This document shows positions 4,907 to 41,095 of a DNA stretch of 64,000 nt, in pieces. Origin of the DNA: Pseudoxanthomonas wuyuanensis (GTDB lineage: Bacteria > Pseudomonadota > Gammaproteobacteria > Xanthomonadales > Xanthomonadaceae); the NCBI RefSeq assembly GCF_900215535.1, contig NZ_OCND01000001.1, positions 372,001 to 436,000 of the forward strand, read 5' to 3'. The position numbers and the translations under genes are program-made. Under the pieces are notes generated by a model, which was not told the origin of the DNA, made no database searches, and saw only the letters and a list, made by a program, of their open reading frames with translations. Numbering within the stretch: the stretch's first letter is position 1; each line of letters begins with the position of its first letter.

Positions 4907-5869
4907 CTACAGGTTTGCCCGCGCATGGCCGAACGCGGCCCGGTATGCGGCCGGTGCGATACCGATCCTGCCGGCGAAATGCTGCCGTAGCGAATCCGCG
5001 CTACCCAGGCCGCAGGATTCGGCGATGCGCTCCATCGGCAGCGCGGTGGTTTCCAGCAGTTCGCGGGCCCGTCCGAGCCGTTGCTGCAGCAGCCACTGCA
5101 ACGGGCTGGTGCCGGTTTCGGCGCGGAATTTTCGCGTCAGGGTGCGTTCGCTCAGATGCGCGCGCCGGGCCAGCTCGGCCAGCGAGATCGGTCTGTCCAG
5201 GTGCCGGCATGCCCATTCGCGCAGCGGCGCCAGCGAATCTCCGCGTTGCTGGCTGGCCGGGCGCGGAATGAACTGCGCCTGGCCGCCAGCGCGGACCGGC
5301 GCCACCACCGTCATGCGGGCCACCTCGTTGGCGACGGCCGCGCCGTAGTCGCGCATCACCAGATGCAGGCACAGGTCGATGCCGGCGGCAACGCCGGCGG
5401 AAGTAACGATGCTGCCGTCTTCGACAAACAGCACGTCCGGCCGCACCTCGATGGCGGGGAAGCGGCTACGCAGTTCGTCTGCGCGCAGCCAGAAAGTGGT
5501 GGCGCCGCGTCCTTCCAGCAGACCCGCCTGGGCAAGCGCGAAAGCGCCTGTGCACAGCGATACCATCCGCCTGCAAGCCTTGTGCGCCCGCTGCAAGGCA
5601 CGGATGACCACCGGGTCGAGCGGCTCGCGCGAGCCGGAGCCGACAACGATGATGGTGTCCGCCTGACGCAGGATGCCCAGGCCCTGGCGTATGACCAGGT
5701 CCAGGCCTTGCGCGGCATCGGCGCTGGCCACGGTGCCGGGGCGCGGGGTGCACAGCTTCACCTCGTAGCCGGGCGCGCCATCGACCCGCGCATTGCCGAG
5801 GATCAGCCCGGGAATCGCAAGATCGAACGCGGTGACCGGCGGCAACGCCAGGACGGCGACATGGTGCAT
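4907..5869 (-). CDS. GlxA-type transcriptional regulator (DJ-1/PfpI plus AraC HTH)
   Basis: This 320-residue protein has two parts. Residues about 1-190 form a DJ-1/PfpI-like domain with the nucleophile-elbow motif MVSLCTGAFALAQAGLL and TSAGVAAGIDLCLHLV. Residues about 215-320 form an AraC-type double helix-turn-helix, with LAELARRAHLSERTLTRKF and IAESCGLGSADSLRQHF. Such regulators sense small amines, amides or amino-acid-like ligands and act as cytoplasmic activators. It is divergent from the cupin/metallo-hydrolase pair that starts at 6036, with a 166-bp shared region, so control of that pair is the natural guess. The ligand is unknown. Confidence 0.9.
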   Translation of the reverse strand: MHHVAVLALPPVTAFDLAIPGLILGNARVDGAPGYEVKLCTPRPGTVASADAAQGLDLVIRQGLGILRQADTIIVVGSGSREPLDPVVIRALQRAHKACRRMVSLCTGAFALAQAGLLEGRGATTFWLRADELRSRFPAIEVRPDVLFVEDGSIVTSAGVAAGIDLCLHLVMRDYGAAVANEVARMTVVAPVRAGGQAQFIPRPASQQRGDSLAPLREWACRHLDRPISLAELARRAHLSERTLTRKFRAETGTSPLQWLLQQRLGRARELLETTALPMERIAESCGLGSADSLRQHFAGRIGIAPAAYRAAFGHARANL

Positions 5870-6035
5870 GGCTGGAATATCCCGATCAATGTCAATCCGG
5901 CCACTAGTCTAGCGTCCCGTGAAACCGGACAGTAGCGCTGGACCGCCCGGGTTCTCCGGACGGTGTCTGACAGCCGGCCGTGCCGATGTTGCGCCATGCG
6001 CAGCGGCACCGCCCTTATCCGATGAGCGAGACCCC

Positions 6036-6386
6036 ATGCATAACCCCGAAACCCAGGACGTGCTGCCCGATGTGCAGGCAGTGGATATCGACACGGTGGC
6101 GCCGATTGCGATCGGGCCCGGATGCCTGCGCCGGGATCTGCCCTCGCGCAGCGGCGTGCGGATCTGGGTGGTGGATATGGCGCCCGGCAGCGTGTGGCCG
6201 CATGTGGACCAGCACGACGCGCAGGGCGAGGATGTGTACGTGATCAGCGGCACGATGATCGATGGCGCGCACTCGTTCGGCGCCGGCAGCTATCTCAAGT
6301 TCGCCGCGCACAGCCGGCACCAGCCACGTACCGAGACCGGCGTGCGCCTGTTCGGGTTCAATCTGCTTGCAGGGACAGCGCCATGA
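6036..6386 (+). CDS. small cupin-domain protein (ChrR-like cupin)
   Basis: The product is 116 residues and forms one beta-barrel cupin. VDMAPGSVWPHVDQHDAQGEDVYVISG supplies His and Glu residues at the place of cupin metal-binding motif 1 (key residues H, H, E), and AAHSRHQPRTETG carries motif 2 His residues. The ATG at 6036 was chosen over an in-frame ATG at 5919 because the extra 39 residues look like non-coding sequence. The stop overlaps the next start (ATGA at 6383), so it is coupled to the metallo-hydrolase. Substrate unknown; it could be an isomerase/dioxygenase or a sensor. Confidence 0.75.
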   Translation: MHNPETQDVLPDVQAVDIDTVAPIAIGPGCLRRDLPSRSGVRIWVVDMAPGSVWPHVDQHDAQGEDVYVISGTMIDGAHSFGAGSYLKFAAHSRHQPRTETGVRLFGFNLLAGTAP

Positions 6387-7237
6387 CCCGCGGCCCATCT
6401 GCCGGCGGCATCGGCCGGCGCGGGTTTCTGAAGGGCGGGATTGCCGCGGCGGTTTCGCTGGGGCTGGGCGTGCCCGCCGTGCGGGCGACCGGCAACGATG
6501 CGCTGCGCGTGCAGCGGCTTGCCTGGGCCGGTATTCGCCTGCAACTGGCCAACGCCACGCTGTTCGTCGATCCGTTGATCGATCCGAACATCTGGGCATC
6601 GGCGCTGGCCGATCCGATGGTGGCCGTCGACGACGCCGTCGGCGACAGCTACGTGCTGGTCACCCATCGCCACCCGGACCACTACGATGCCAGCGCGGTG
6701 GCCGCTGCGCTGCGCAACGGCGGCACGCTGGTGCATGCGGAAGGGACTTCGTTCCATCCGCTACCGGCCAATGTGCGCGAGCGGCTCTCGCCGCCGTGGG
6801 AGCCGCAACTGCTGGGGGATTTCACCGCCACTCCGGTTCCGGCCGTGGACGGGTACGGCGATCGGCAGGTTTCCTGGGTGGTTTCCGCCGGCGGACGGCG
6901 GATCTTTCACGGCGGCGACACCATGTGGCACGGCAACTGGTGGCGCATCGGCCGCCAGTTCGGGCGCTTCGATGCGGTATTTCTGCCGGTCAACGGCGCG
7001 CGCTTCTCATGGCGCAAGCCGGCCAGCGACGAGTCGGCGGTGTTGACCCCGGAGCAGGCGATGTCGGCCGCGACGATACTTGGGGCCAGGTACCTGGTGC
7101 CTATCCACTATGGCGTCAGCGGTGCGGAAGGGTATGCCGAAGTGGACGACGTCCTGGGGCGCCTCCAGCGCGCGGCCGCGCCCGGCGGCCCGCAGGTGCG
7201 GATTCTGCGGCCCGGGGAATGGCTGGATTGGGACTGA
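6383..7237 (+). CDS. Tat-exported MBL-fold metallo-hydrolase
   Basis: The protein is 284 residues. A twin-arginine signal (GRRGFLKGG, then a hydrophobic stretch to VRAT) predicts folded export, which suits a metal enzyme. The metallo-beta-lactamase motif is THRHPDHYD (HxHxDH), followed by further ligands in FHGGDTMW and VPIHYG. The layout resembles the UlaG/RomA-like lactonase or phosphodiesterase branch (LFVDPLIDPN near the start). The start at 6383 is fixed by the ATGA overlap with the cupin gene and by the Tat motif directly after it. The substrate is not evident. Confidence 0.85.
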   Translation: MTRGPSAGGIGRRGFLKGGIAAAVSLGLGVPAVRATGNDALRVQRLAWAGIRLQLANATLFVDPLIDPNIWASALADPMVAVDDAVGDSYVLVTHRHPDHYDASAVAAALRNGGTLVHAEGTSFHPLPANVRERLSPPWEPQLLGDFTATPVPAVDGYGDRQVSWVVSAGGRRIFHGGDTMWHGNWWRIGRQFGRFDAVFLPVNGARFSWRKPASDESAVLTPEQAMSAATILGARYLVPIHYGVSGAEGYAEVDDVLGRLQRAAAPGGPQVRILRPGEWLDWD

Positions 7238-7314
7238 GACCGCGCAGGCCAATCCTTCCGTGGGTGCGGGAGCGGCTCCGAGCGGCGCAAACCCGGCCGG
7301 CTTGAGCGTCATGC

Positions 7315-7803
7315 GTGCGCCGTGGGATCATCGCGCCCGTGACCCGTCCATCTGCCCCGGCACATCATCTGCGCGATCTCGCACGGCTGCGCCGCGTGCG
7401 CGACCGCATCGATCGCGAATACGCAAAGCCGCTCAATGTCGAGGAGCTTGCCGGCGGCGTCCACATGTCCGCCGGGCATCTGAGCCGCGAGTTCAAGCTT
7501 GCCTTCGGCGAGTCGCCTTACAGCTACCTGATGACCCGGCGCATCGAGCGGGCGATGGCGTTGCTGCGCCGCGGCGACCTCAGCGTCACCGAGATCTGCT
7601 TCATGGTCGGCTGTTCGTCGCTGGGCACCTTCAGCACGCGCTTTGCCGAACTGGTCGGCGTGCCGCCCGGCGTTTACCGGCGGGAGGCGGCGCGGGCGAC
7701 CAAGGGAATGCCGGCCTGCGTGGCGCGGCAGGTGACCCGGCCGGTCAGAATGAAATCGGTCAGGAATGAAGAAGCGGCGGCCACCGAGCCGAGTCTAGGA
7801 TGA
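7315..7803 (+). CDS. AraC-family helix-turn-helix regulator
   Basis: This 162-residue protein consists almost only of an AraC DNA-binding domain: LNVEELAGGVHMSAGHLSREF (first HTH) and VTEICFMVGCSSLGTFSTRF (second HTH), with the family PxxYR ending as VPPGVYRRE. There is no separate ligand domain, so the sensing partner may be the VOC protein encoded next. Its stop codon overlaps the start of the VOC gene, a well-known AraC-VOC pairing in proteobacteria. Confidence 0.88.
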   Translation: MRRGIIAPVTRPSAPAHHLRDLARLRRVRDRIDREYAKPLNVEELAGGVHMSAGHLSREFKLAFGESPYSYLMTRRIERAMALLRRGDLSVTEICFMVGCSSLGTFSTRFAELVGVPPGVYRREAARATKGMPACVARQVTRPVRMKSVRNEEAAATEPSLG

Positions 7804-37427: not shown

Positions 37428-37988
37428 ATGCCGATGAGAGCGTTCGGGACCGAACGGTTGTGGGTGCGCCCTCTCGGCACTGGCGACCAGGCGCTGTACT
37501 GTCGTTTGTATACCCATCATGACGTCATGAAGCATGTGGGGCAGCCGCTGACTTACGAGGCCGCCCGGGCTGGTTTCGCTCATGTGTGTCGGTCGAACGA
37601 ACAGGGCGACTTCCTCCACCGGTGCTGGGTCATATCCGAACGGGGTACGGGGTTGGAGGCAGGAATCGTCGCCGTAACCAGGCATGGGGAAAAAGCGGAG
37701 TTTGGGATGCTGCTTTTGCCCCAATGGCAAGCGAAAGGAATTGGCAAGGAAGTCGTTCCTCTGTTGATGGATTATGTCTTCCGGACCTCCGAAATCAGCG
37801 AGATGTTCAATTGCCACCGGCTGGAAAACACCGGCGTAGTGAGAGTGATGCAGGCGTTGCAGTTCGAGGCCATGGAGACGACGGCACGAGGCGAAGGATG
37901 GGGCGGATGGCGGCGTACGCGTTCCCAATGGAGTGCTGCGCGCAACCGACCCCATCCAGATAAACCAACCACGAATTCAGTGGCATGA
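37428..37988 (+). CDS. GNAT acetyltransferase next to the borosin-like genes
   Basis: The protein has 186 residues. It belongs to the RimJ/RimL-like acetyltransferases: TERLWVRPLGTGDQALYCRL at the N-terminus, the acetyl-CoA loop LLPQWQAKGIGKEVVPLLMD (QxxGxG) and the late segment ENTGVVRVMQALQFE. It ends six bases before the methyltransferase start, so the two are co-transcribed and probably coupled. It may acetylate the precursor peptide, the mature product or an unrelated amine; only the first two would explain its place. Cytoplasmic. Confidence 0.82.
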   Translation: MPMRAFGTERLWVRPLGTGDQALYCRLYTHHDVMKHVGQPLTYEAARAGFAHVCRSNEQGDFLHRCWVISERGTGLEAGIVAVTRHGEKAEFGMLLLPQWQAKGIGKEVVPLLMDYVFRTSEISEMFNCHRLENTGVVRVMQALQFEAMETTARGEGWGGWRRTRSQWSAARNRPHPDKPTTNSVA

Positions 37989-37994
37989 GCGCAA

Positions 37995-38792
37995 ATGATC
38001 AAACAAGGTAGCTTGGCTTGTGTCGGTTTGGGTATGACATTGGGCGCCCATCTTGGGCCGCGTGCGCGCAGTTGCATTGAACAGGCCGATGTCGTTTTCG
38101 TCGCGGCGTCGGATCCGCTGGTCGAGCTTTGGGTGCAGGGCATGAACCGGGACGTTCGCAGCCTGCAAGGGTTTTACGCCGATGGGAAGTCGAGACATCG
38201 CAGCTACCGTGAAATGGTGGACGCCATCATGTGCGAGGTCCGGAGCGGTCGCGACGTCTGCGGAGCCTTCTACGGGCATCCTGGCGTATTCGCAATGGTG
38301 CCGCACATGGCCATTGCAAGCGCTCGCGAAGACGGCTATCAGGCTTTCATGGAAGCGGCGGTTTCTGCCGAGGACTGCCTTTACGCGGATCTGGCCATCG
38401 ACCCGGGCAGCGTTGGTTGCCAGCATTACGAGGCCAGCCAGTTCATGTTCTATCGTAGAAGGATCGAGCCCTCGGCCTATCTCATGCTCTGGCAGATCGG
38501 CGTGGCAGGGGACAGGACATTCAGCGTTGCCACGACCGGAACGGGCTATCGCCAGGTACTGTTGGAAATACTCGCCGAAGATTACCCGATGGAGCACGAG
38601 GTTATCGCGTACGAGGCGGCAACTCTGCCGATATCGCGGCCGAGAAAGGAGCATATGGCTCTGTCCGGACTGATAACCGCAAGACTGAATCCAGAGACGA
38701 CCCTGGTCATTCCGCCTGCGCGAAGACCGGAGCGAAACAACGAGGTCATCAGGCGGATAGAGGAAATCGAGCAGGCGATGCTTGTTGCATAA
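37995..38792 (+). CDS. split borosin-type peptide alpha-N-methyltransferase
   Basis: This 265-residue enzyme has the tetrapyrrole-methylase fold but the motifs of borosin peptide-backbone N-methyltransferases. LACVGLGMTLG is the SAM loop; YGHPGVF is at 93-99, SAEDCLYADLAIDPG at 124-138, EASQF at 146-150 and LWQIG at 165-169. Tyr61, Arg67, Tyr71 and Tyr93 match by spacing Tyr66, Arg72, Tyr76 and Tyr98 of fungal OphMA (from memory). Unlike OphMA there is no fused C-terminal clasp or core, so it is a split enzyme like SonM of Shewanella, acting in trans on the peptide encoded at 38929. No cobalamin gene is near, which argues against a corrin methylase. Confidence 0.9.
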   Translation: MIKQGSLACVGLGMTLGAHLGPRARSCIEQADVVFVAASDPLVELWVQGMNRDVRSLQGFYADGKSRHRSYREMVDAIMCEVRSGRDVCGAFYGHPGVFAMVPHMAIASAREDGYQAFMEAAVSAEDCLYADLAIDPGSVGCQHYEASQFMFYRRRIEPSAYLMLWQIGVAGDRTFSVATTGTGYRQVLLEILAEDYPMEHEVIAYEAATLPISRPRKEHMALSGLITARLNPETTLVIPPARRPERNNEVIRRIEEIEQAMLVA

Positions 38793-38808
38793 ATTGTTGA
38801 TAGTATTG

Positions 38809-38844
38809 CCGTTTCCGCCAGGCCTTCGTCCGGACCGGAAACGG
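38809..38844 (+). other. hairpin between methyltransferase and precursor genes
   Basis: CCGTTTCCG (38809-38817) and CGGAAACGG (38836-38844) are perfect 9-bp arms around 18 bases. No T-run follows, so it could reduce rather than stop read-through, or protect the downstream precursor message as a 5' stem. Confidence 0.55.
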
Positions 38845-38928
38845 TCGTTCGATGATGGGTTATAGGGGTATGCGGAACTTCGCTCCAGGGCGAATGGAAA
38901 TCAATCGAATTTTCGAAAAACGGGGGGA

Positions 38929-39201
38929 GTGGTGAACGCTATTAGGTTTCTCGAGACGGTAGGGAGCGATGCCCGGCTCAGTGGGGCTTCTGCGGGTGTT
39001 CTGGCGGCCGCGCTTGATTCGTTTGATATGGGGGCGGAGGAGCGGCGAGCGCTGCTCGATGCAGATATTCCTGCATTGACTGGCCTGCTGAAGGGCCGAG
39101 AGAAGATGTTTTGCATGATCATCGCTCCCGATGGTGCCGAAGAGAAAGAGTCTCCCGATGAGCCGGTTGACCAGCCGGAAGAAGAAAGTCCAAAAGAGTG
39201 A
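38929..39201 (+). CDS. borosin-like precursor peptide with helical leader domain
   Basis: This is a 90-residue peptide. Residues 5-54 form a small helical domain (IRFLETVGSDARLSG, AEERRALLDADIPALTGLL) of the pattern FLxxLGxDAxL...LxxEExxALLxxDxxxL. That is the borosin-binding domain of split borosin substrates such as SonA, often auto-annotated as a LigA dioxygenase subunit. A hydrophobic segment MFCMII (60-65), which aligns with the methylated YLVIS of SonA, is followed by an acidic, Pro-rich tail (68-90). The start is one of two adjacent GTG codons (38929 or 38932) after GGGGGGAG. It lies 136 bp after the methyltransferase gene. I infer that it is the substrate of that enzyme. Confidence 0.83.
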   Translation: MVNAIRFLETVGSDARLSGASAGVLAAALDSFDMGAEERRALLDADIPALTGLLKGREKMFCMIIAPDGAEEKESPDEPVDQPEEESPKE

Positions 39202-39247: not shown

Positions 39248-41095
39248 ATGAAGGTTGGAATGGCAAAAGCGTTGATGATGGCGTTAGTGCTGTGTTTCGC
39301 CTGCCATCCGGCGCTTGCGCAAGACTCGGCGGCTTCATTGCTAAAGCGGGCCGACGCCGTCCGCACTTCCGATCCGACCGAGTTCGCCAAGCTGCTGGGT
39401 TTGCTTGAGGAACGCACCGATTACGCGTCTTCTGAAGAGAAGATGCGTTTCAAACTGCTCAAATCCCATGCCTTTCTTATGAAGGGCCAGTACGAACTCG
39501 CCGTCGGAGAACTGAAGGAAATCCGGGAAACGGCGGTTGACGACGAACTGATCTTTCGCGCCGGCTCGATGCTGGTCAACACATATGCATTGACCAGGCA
39601 GTTCGAGGAGGGGCTGAGGACGTTGAACGACACGCTTCCCTTGGCCGACAAGGTTGCCGATGCGGATATCAGGCATAGAGGCTGGCTTGTAGCGGGGGTG
39701 CTTTACAACCAGGTGGGCGAGTATGCGCTCGGGGAGCACTATTCCGACAAGGTTGCAGGCGATTCTCCGGTGGGCAGGAGCAGATGCGCAGCCGGAAACC
39801 TGAAGATCGAGTCGCAGATGGGACTGAAGCGCTCCGTGGATGAGGGGGCGGTGCAGCAGGTAATCGAAATCTGCGAAGAGCAGAAGGAGCCTCTTCTGGC
39901 GGGCCTGACGCGGACGTACCTGGCGCGGGTATGGGCCGAAGCTGGCAAGATAAAATCTGCGGTTGCGTTACTCGAGCGCTACTTGCCCGATGTTCAGAAG
40001 AATGGATATCCGCTCCTAATTAGCGAATACCATTCTGTAATGGCTGATCTCAAACTCCGGCAGGGCGAAGACGCCGCTGCGGAGAGCCATGCGCAGAAGG
40101 CGGTCGAGAACAGCACTCGGTTGCTTGGGTCGCAGCCGCTGGTTTCAGCTTATCGCACGCTTTATGAGATCGCCGAGCATCGCAGCGACAGCGAGTTGGC
40201 GTTGAAACGTTATCGCGATTATGCCGATGCGGAAAAGGCGTATTCCAATGACATGAAGTCTCGGCAGCTTGCCTATCAGATAGTTCGTCAGCAGATACTT
40301 CAGAAGAATCAACAAATCGATCTGTTGGACAAGCAGAACCAGGTGCTTCAGCTGCAAAGCAAGCTGAACCAGCAATCGGCACAGAACACCAGGCTGATGG
40401 TCATCCTGCTGGTGGTCCTGGTCGCCTCCATCGGCTATTGGGCCTACAAGATCAAGCGAGTGCAGGTGTCGCTGAAGAAGATGGCCGAGACCGATGCGCT
40501 GACGGATCTTTGCAATCGCCACCATTTCACGCTGCAGGCCGAGCGCAGCCTGGCGCAATGCGCCCGCAGCGGTGAAGAGGCCGCGTTGATCATGTTCGAT
40601 CTGGATCATTTCAAGCAGATCAACGACCGTTACGGCCACCAGACCGGCGACTGGACGCTGAAGCAGGTGGGTGAGATCTGCAAGGCCTTTTGCCGCCGGG
40701 TCGACACGGTGGGACGGTTGGGCGGCGAGGAGTTCGCCTTCCTGATGTACGGCTGCGATATGCGCGCGGCCAAGCGCCTGGCCGAGGACTGCAGGGTGCG
40801 CATCGCTGCCATCGACAGCCGCGAGTCCGGCCATGTATTCGCCACCACGGCCAGTTTCGGCGTCGCCTCGACGCTTGCCTCCGGCTACAGTCTGGCCAGA
40901 TTGCTCTCGCATGCGGACAGGATGCTGTACCGGGCCAAGCATCTGGGCCGCAACCGTGTCTGCGGTACCGACGACGACACCGTCACGCCGTTGCACGGGC
41001 CGCAGCTGCAGGACTCGACCGTTGTCGCCGACCAGCATGCCGACCCGTCCGAGCCGGCGCTGGCCGCCCGCCGGATTGAACGCGTGGTTTCCTGA
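39248..41095 (+). CDS. exported TPR sensor fused to diguanylate cyclase (GGDEF)
   Basis: This 615-residue protein has a signal peptide (cleavage after ALAQ), then a periplasmic TPR region to about residue 340 and a coiled coil (LQKNQQIDLLDKQNQVLQLQ). One membrane helix lies at about 382-402 (LMVILLVVLVASIGYWAY), followed by a cytoplasmic GGDEF domain. The active site is GGEEF at 492-496, with an intact inhibitory I-site RRVD at 483-486, so an active, product-inhibited c-di-GMP synthase is expected. AAGGAG precedes the ATG at 39248. The gene begins 46 bp after the precursor peptide, and its N-terminal half looks less GC-rich than the rest, as do the borosin genes. Confidence 0.93.
   Translation: MKVGMAKALMMALVLCFACHPALAQDSAASLLKRADAVRTSDPTEFAKLLGLLEERTDYASSEEKMRFKLLKSHAFLMKGQYELAVGELKEIRETAVDDELIFRAGSMLVNTYALTRQFEEGLRTLNDTLPLADKVADADIRHRGWLVAGVLYNQVGEYALGEHYSDKVAGDSPVGRSRCAAGNLKIESQMGLKRSVDEGAVQQVIEICEEQKEPLLAGLTRTYLARVWAEAGKIKSAVALLERYLPDVQKNGYPLLISEYHSVMADLKLRQGEDAAAESHAQKAVENSTRLLGSQPLVSAYRTLYEIAEHRSDSELALKRYRDYADAEKAYSNDMKSRQLAYQIVRQQILQKNQQIDLLDKQNQVLQLQSKLNQQSAQNTRLMVILLVVLVASIGYWAYKIKRVQVSLKKMAETDALTDLCNRHHFTLQAERSLAQCARSGEEAALIMFDLDHFKQINDRYGHQTGDWTLKQVGEICKAFCRRVDTVGRLGGEEFAFLMYGCDMRAAKRLAEDCRVRIAAIDSRESGHVFATTASFGVASTLASGYSLARLLSHADRMLYRAKHLGRNRVCGTDDDTVTPLHGPQLQDSTVVADQHADPSEPALAARRIERVVS

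Follow-up and report, generated by a model that had tools for sequence, protein, structure and literature searches.

We found that a split borosin locus of Pseudoxanthomonas wuyuanensis, located in a 64,000-nucleotide stretch of DNA that was analyzed as a whole (the window), carries next to its precursor gene a putative receptor of TPR-transmembrane-GGDEF architecture, and that between close relatives with such loci the precursor core and the receptor ectodomain change together. Based on the comparison of approximately 200 related loci, we consider it probable that the mature borosin serves as ligand for this neighboring receptor and sets c-di-GMP, with the four genes of the locus acting as a peptide-signal module. 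The proposal draws on the families of enzyme and precursor, the architecture of the receptor, gene linkage, co-occurrence, gene fusion, and the co-variation of core and ectodomain, all of which were read from sequence.

A split borosin methyltransferase and an adjoining acetyltransferase

The methyltransferase gene (37995 to 38792, plus strand) encodes a 265-amino-acid protein of the SonM type, of which a search of its own genome detected one copy. All of its matches in the PDB were borosin methyltransferases save one marginal hit (E 0.29), i.e., SonM (6.5e-70), dbOphM/OphMA (approximately 1e-50), and MroMA (3e-45), with OphMA and MroMA, which are fungal fused borosins, spanning 1e-45 to 1e-51, and its identity to SonM-type enzymes is approximately 47-50%. 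The motifs YGHPGVF, SAEDCLYADLAIDPG, and EASQF named in the original prediction are present in this open reading frame, and the predicted borosin Tyr/Arg/Tyr/Tyr spacing was recovered by an alignment in which Y61, R67, Y71, and Y93 correspond to the active-site residues Y58, R67, Y71, and Y93 of SonM. Pfam assigned the protein only to the broad TP_methylase family, while precorrin-type and YabN models gave weak matches (7e-4 and 8.6e-8, respectively), far under their own cut-offs. With borosin enzymes dominating the PDB matches, SonM at 6.5e-70 versus YabN at 8.6e-8, the enzyme groups with borosin methyltransferases and not with precorrin or diphthine methylases, and a precorrin-type identity was rejected. 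In agreement with the predicted absence of a fused core, no clasp or core was found on the 265-residue enzyme, and a 90-amino-acid precursor is encoded by a separate gene approximately 137 bases downstream. Altogether, sequence, fold, active-site residues, and conservation back the split-borosin identification, and by these measures the locus is a bacterial split borosin of the SonM/OphMA type. At one related locus (L100), a 450-amino-acid borosin-type methyltransferase with a C-terminal extension (6290-7642, minus strand) adjoins a 304-amino-acid open reading frame with a TEVTTEVTTEV repeat (5333-6247, minus strand).

For comparison, loci were taken from GTDB genomes (63 loci), from genomes of the same family, 77 of 198 of which carry the enzyme, and from Shewanella, in which 34 of 40 genomes carry it. 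At the window locus, a gene for a 186-amino-acid GNAT acetyltransferase (37428 to 37988, plus strand; Acetyltransf_3, RimL-like; Pfam PF13302, E 1.1e-18) ends 7 bases ahead of the methyltransferase gene. A GNAT gene on the same strand and within 2.5 kb of the enzyme was detected at at least 46/63, 22/30, and 13/31 loci of three samples; these counts, like those given below for a protease gene, are lower bounds because many loci have short flanks. The acetyltransferase is a candidate tailoring enzyme, which might, for example, acetylate the N terminus of the released peptide.

A precursor related to SonA

The gene at 38929 to 39201 (plus strand) encodes the 90-amino-acid borosin precursor. Searched as a single sequence against Pfam, NCBIfam, and the PDB, the precursor matched nothing useful; when the profile of its family was used against the PDB, the best match was SonA at 6.2e-14, with SonA and its variants spanning 6e-14 to 1e-12 and all other chains scoring no better than 0.5. 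Comparison of this profile with SonA-type precursors by hhalign gave 96.7% (E 3.6e-10) and was ungapped over 59 columns. AlphaFold2 predicted a five-helix bundle (helices 2-13, 15-18, 22-30, 36-43, and 47-53) as the borosin-binding domain, or leader, of residues 1-53 (38929 to 39087), and the layout of these helices is that of the SonA borosin-binding domain, residues 1-53. Foldseek searches with the model placed SonA chains at the top, with TM-scores of up to 0.75 on the target and E-values of approximately 1, weak values for a domain of this small size. The precursor was the sole match in its own genome, and homologues adjoin the enzyme at 58/63, 30/30, and 28/31 loci of the three samples; the open reading frame at 38929 is therefore not due to chance.

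The leader is followed by the core region, residues 60-67 (MFCMIIAP; 39106 to 39129), which is placed by the ungapped register with SonA, and by an acidic tail, residues 68-90 (39130 to 39198), in which acidic residues prevail across 93 homologues and which presumably is cleaved off or belongs to the follower. The helical domain of the borosin type, the hydrophobic segment at residues 60-66 (MFCMIIA), and the acidic tail had each been anticipated from the window, and all were confirmed here. SonA is methylated at L63 and I65 (PMC8429565), and by the shared register M63 and I65 are the expected methylation sites of the window core. Of 92 precursors of the window type, 72 retain Cys62. No signal peptide was found on the precursor. 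The Pfam model LigA matched 5 of 52 precursors, the window precursor not among them. Precursors of other loci vary in form, with a long lysine-rich, not acidic, C-terminal tail at two of them (L022, 7426-7854; L028, 7470-7898) and with two or three differing precursors in a row ahead of one cyclase at others (L073, 2343-3179; L015, 6831-7443; L105, L106, and L107).

The neighboring TPR-GGDEF protein has the architecture of a membrane receptor

The next gene (39248 to 41095, plus strand) encodes a 615-amino-acid putative receptor, a TPR-transmembrane-GGDEF diguanylate cyclase (PF00990, E 3.1e-41). A predicted Sec signal peptide, MKVGMAKALMMALVLCFACHPALAQ, forms its hydrophobic N-terminal stretch (39248 to 39322) and is followed by a TPR ectodomain, residues 28-311 (39329 to 40180), which is an all-helical repeat in the structural model (pLDDT 90.7). 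Hydropathy places a transmembrane segment at approximately residues 383-399 (40394 to 40444), within a long signaling helix of the model, residues 315-414, and the catalytic GGDEF domain (40484 to 40957; PF00990) contains GGEEF at 40721-40735 and an RxxD inhibitory site. Among 77 homologues of the cyclase, two hydrophobic segments precede GGEEF in 60, GG[DE]EF is intact in all 77, and the I-site is intact in 57.

A periplasmic location is predicted for the TPR ectodomain. Two of its cysteines, C180 (39785-39787) and C209 (39872-39874), are conserved without exception in the sequences spanning these positions, comprising 113-116 window-type, 16 SonM-type, and 5 fused sequences, and outside these two residues ectodomain identity can drop below 30%; this invariance suggests a periplasmic disulfide. 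The cyclase profile matched 27 proteins in the same genome, and only the borosin-adjacent one matched over the TPR part. When compared with solved folds, the TPR part aligned with the pheromone receptors Rap and NprR (Z of approximately 23-25 over approximately 305 residues; approximately 24-25 for peptide-bound Rap proteins), a likeness that is compatible with a receptor role and not specific to it, as unrelated TPR proteins align equally well.

The TPR-GGDEF gene is linked to the enzyme and, in some relatives, fused to it

A TPR-GGDEF gene was found near the enzyme at 61/63, 30/30, and 31/31 loci, i.e., 122 of 124, in many genera of Gammaproteobacteria, with most other neighbors of the enzyme changing between groups; the SonM/SonA loci of Shewanella likewise carry this gene. 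Both an acetyltransferase gene ahead of the enzyme and a GGDEF gene after it had been noted at the window locus, and both are present; the gene order had also been put forward as perhaps new, but the order acetyltransferase, methyltransferase, precursor, TPR-GGDEF proved to be common in Lysobacteraceae and other Gammaproteobacteria. Of the neighbors considered in that prediction, the GGDEF gene is the informative one. Ferrimonas has the precursor first, then the cyclase, and then the enzyme. Across the 198 genomes of the family, the ectodomain profile and the enzyme were both present in 73, the enzyme only in 4, the ectodomain only in 2, and neither in 119, giving a Fisher p of 1.5e-46 that ignores shared ancestry.

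In several Lysobacteraceae, enzyme and cyclase are joined in natural fusions of approximately 842-881 amino acids with the architecture TPR-TM-GGDEF-methyltransferase, the methyltransferase, which is of the SonM type, being at the C terminus (L096, 4868-7390, plus strand; L099, 7100-9634, minus strand; L101, 1-1740, plus strand; also L097, L098, and L102). Directly upstream of the fusion, 5 of the 6 loci carry a SonA-like small gene, and the core-like ends of these genes are similar (NHLIRTYED and variants).

Beside the borosin genes of other relatives (L012, L036, L041, L050, L054, L055, and many of L074-L115) lies a gene for a pepsin-like aspartic protease (Pfam Asp), counted at at least 6/63, 10/30, and 13/31 loci, whose product is a candidate leader protease. 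Shewasin A, for one, reportedly cleaves a borosin precursor. Different from the pepsin-associated loci of the shewasin type, the window locus carries no such gene, and a search of the same genome with one query detected none (E ≤ 0.001). No exporter or transporter was conserved across the loci.

Joint exchange of core and ectodomain in Shewanella

A test was set beforehand for the SonM/SonA clade, in which the ectodomain was predicted to follow the core and not the leader or the enzyme. In a set of 16 loci, close relatives agreed with this prediction; over all 16, a set of very uneven relatedness, the ectodomain is followed by the leader no less closely than by the core. A larger sample comprised 30 loci, and among the Shewanella SonA loci 10 cores of a Y type (YL[VI]IS...) and 9 of an F type (F[LVI]LVNHGNN) were distinguished. 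Ectodomain identity was 0.69-0.98 within either type and 0.47-0.62 between the two, with enzymes up to 0.99 and leaders up to 0.98 identical across types. Core type matched ectodomain type at 19 of 19 loci; the nearest ectodomain neighbor had the same core type in 19 of 19 cases, whereas for 12 of these 19 loci the nearest enzyme neighbor carried the opposite type. When enzyme and leader were controlled for, core and ectodomain showed a partial correlation of 0.58, a value reached by 0 of 2000 permutations.

The borders of the exchanged block were located in two pairs of loci of opposite type, L206 versus L208 and L216 versus L218, the precursor of L206 agreeing with SonA of the PDB over the 64 residues compared. 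In both pairs, DNA identity is 92-100% through the end of the leader, approximately 50% across core and TPR repeats, and 88-98% afterwards, with the upper break at approximately cyclase residue 295, where the TPRs end, ahead of the signaling helix. Control pairs of the same type exhibited no drop across the core-TPR block. At loci with two precursors (L210, L215, and L217), the copy adjacent to the cyclase fits the ectodomain type, and the upstream copy has the opposite core type and an altered or extended tail; these upstream genes were apparently left behind by allele replacement.

Exchange in other genera and its bearing on the window strain

Rheinheimera loci carry tandem precursor-cyclase pairs. 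In the first pair of L026, L030, and L042, the GGDEF domains are 96-98% identical, the ectodomains 28-29%, and the precursors 28-43%; in the second pair, precursor and ectodomain are both conserved. DNA identity between L026 and L030 is approximately 88%, falls to approximately 43% across precursor 1 and ectodomain 1, and recovers; it recovers likewise between L026 and L061, where the region of low identity takes in the acetyltransferase too. A drop over precursor and ectodomain was also found in Ferrimonas (L057 and L060). In 86 non-independent pairs with GGDEF identity above 0.8, precursor identity correlated with that of the ectodomain (rho 0.74) as compared to the GGDEF domain (-0.06) and the enzyme (0.26), and a Mantel test on the Rheinheimera tandem pairs was modest (rho 0.52, 26/5000). 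Over all 2011 pairs of loci, the precursor had partial correlations of 0.24 with the ectodomain, 0.22 with the GGDEF domain, and 0.24 with the enzyme, and with the mirror-tree over all loci undecided in this way, comparisons at matched relatedness were needed; the core-ectodomain signal is seen only between close relatives.

In the genus of the window strain, allele groups were observed whose GGDEF domains are 88-99% identical and whose ectodomains are 36-66% identical between groups; because the enzyme diverges as well, this set does not separate core from enzyme. The window shares gene content and gene order with these loci, with enzyme, precursor, and putative receptor each in a single copy, and the sharp exchange, observed in relatives and not between close relatives of this strain, would extend to it by homology.

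DISCUSSION

With enzyme, leader, and output domain conserved and core and sensor jointly exchanged, these loci have the pattern of a peptide-pheromone locus, and the simplest account would be that the ectodomain binds a core-derived peptide as its ligand. According to the mechanism we propose, the methyltransferase would dock the helical leader and methylate backbone amides of the hydrophobic core from N to C, with M63 and I65 expected, after which a protease would release the core peptide, which the acetyltransferase may then cap. The N-methylated mature peptide would then bind the TPR ectodomain, alter diguanylate cyclase activity, and change cellular c-di-GMP, and core and ectodomain would be swapped between strains as a single specificity unit, yielding pherotypes. 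These steps are our inference, from the methylation in this organism to proteolytic release, export, receptor binding, and the sign of the c-di-GMP response. Membrane permeation is a known property of N-methylated peptides, and that it takes the place of an exporter here is a guess; a wider reading that includes such methylation-enabled crossing of the membrane without a dedicated exporter is put forward tentatively, our doubts slightly outweighing our belief in it.

Some observations count against a receptor role, namely a precursor without a signal peptide, loci without a conserved transporter, and the fact that neighboring core and ectodomain segments could be moved by one recombination tract absent any binding relation; the ends of the exchanged tract coincide with the leader/core and TPR/helix borders. 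Further points against it are that the enzyme, too, diverges between allele groups in the genus of the window strain, where identities fail to set the ectodomain apart, that the partial correlations over all pairs of loci are alike, and that the likeness of the TPR part to pheromone receptors lacks specificity. It might be argued that the locus makes an ordinary split borosin natural product, be it an antibiotic or a metallophore-like compound, and that a linked cyclase, sensing something else, controls how much of it is made. Such control is conceivable, as the fused GGDEF-methyltransferase proteins indicate that a cyclase could regulate the enzyme, and fungal borosins are indeed bioactive peptides (PMC8429565), but we judge this account unlikely since it offers no reason for the ectodomain to follow the core in preference to enzyme or leader, nor for the sharp borders on either side of the block. 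It seems quite improbable, too, that the signal stays inside the cell, with a cytoplasmic TPR domain through which the cyclase would read the precursor or the enzyme-precursor complex and with no peptide exported. That scheme would suit a precursor devoid of a signal peptide, the fusions, which put enzyme and GGDEF on one, cytoplasmic, side, and the example of RcbAB, in which a cytoplasmic TPR domain represses the GGDEF domain and a partner relieves the repression (PMC12282931); it is at odds with the signal-like N terminus of most homologues, the transmembrane segment that separates TPR from GGDEF, and the two invariant TPR cysteines, which suit the oxidizing periplasm.

Co-variation of core and ectodomain could also arise from their being neighbors within a recombination hot spot, or from selection of the ectodomain by a phage or toxin with the core hitch-hiking. 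The two segments are contiguous, and surface receptors under outside selection, too, come in discrete types between conserved flanks. Nevertheless, two Shewanella pairs have an exchanged block that begins within the precursor gene, where the leader gives way to the core, the concordance is 19/19, and the left-over precursors of the other type lie upstream and do not adjoin the receptor, all of which renders these explanations decidedly improbable. Matched and exchanged polymorphic pairs and orphan left-over genes, as present at the Shewanella loci, are also typical of toxin-immunity loci, in which case the modified peptide would be harmful and the ectodomain would protect from it or sense kin. 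Such self-recognition or toxin/immunity appears highly improbable, given that the cyclase active site, needed for signaling and not for immunity, is intact in 77/77 homologues and that SonM-SonA was picked by its authors for easy overexpression and co-purification (PMC8429565).

If the borosin is indeed a signal for the TPR-GGDEF receptor, this would be the first function for split borosin peptides; none of the split borosin pathways has yet been tied to a final natural product, according to the authors of the SonM/SonA study (PMC8429565). It would also add peptide signals of a new chemical class together with a new type of receptor, which leads from a peptide straight to c-di-GMP, as well as a Gram-negative case of pherotype exchange, and chemists could assign peptides to their cognate receptors. 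With the core as the TPR-GGDEF ligand, the function would be directly testable in the laboratory strain S. oneidensis MR-1. GGDEF goes unmentioned in the SonM paper (PMC8429565), and a GGDEF domain is among the borosin architectures drawn in another article, in a Fig. 1 legend that follows Imani 2022, Cho 2022, and Lee 2024 (PMC11395268); an association or fusion of borosins with GGDEF is therefore at least partly known, and the excerpted text of that article states no receptor role for it. A limited literature search found no work assigning a signaling role to split borosins, of which an earlier mention may exist, and nothing relevant on borosins with diguanylate or on SO1480.

Split borosins are thus already known, and the enzyme and precursor of the window are further members; what is new is the matched neighboring receptor-like cyclase. 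The locus resembles SonM/SonA of Shewanella oneidensis, a split, type IV system, in its separate enzyme and precursor, active-site residues, five-helix leader, and core register (PMC8429565), and differs from it in its core, MFCMIIAP followed by a long acidic tail as compared to YLVISHGNGD in SonA, and in the GNAT gene in front. RcbAB of Vibrio vulnificus likewise involves the TPR domain of a GGDEF protein, whose repression there is relieved by a partner, but both RcbAB proteins are predicted to be cytoplasmic, the partner is a TPR protein, and a borosin enzyme goes unmentioned (PMC12282931). The TPR superhelix of the putative receptor is similar in size to those of the RRNPP family (Rap and NprR) and aligns with peptide-bound Rap structures at approximately 10% identity; those receptors are cytoplasmic and lack GGDEF, whereas the window protein has its TPR part ahead of a transmembrane segment and a GGDEF output, and it was not assigned to that family, the TPR fold alone being alike. 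In the ComX-ComP and CSP-ComD systems, a small peptide gene adjoins a membrane receptor, and ligand and sensor co-vary while the output is conserved. Window-type loci similarly pair a small peptide gene with a putative membrane receptor, and they are distinguished from these systems by a GGDEF output, a TPR sensor, a predicted backbone-N-methylated RiPP, and Gram-negative hosts.
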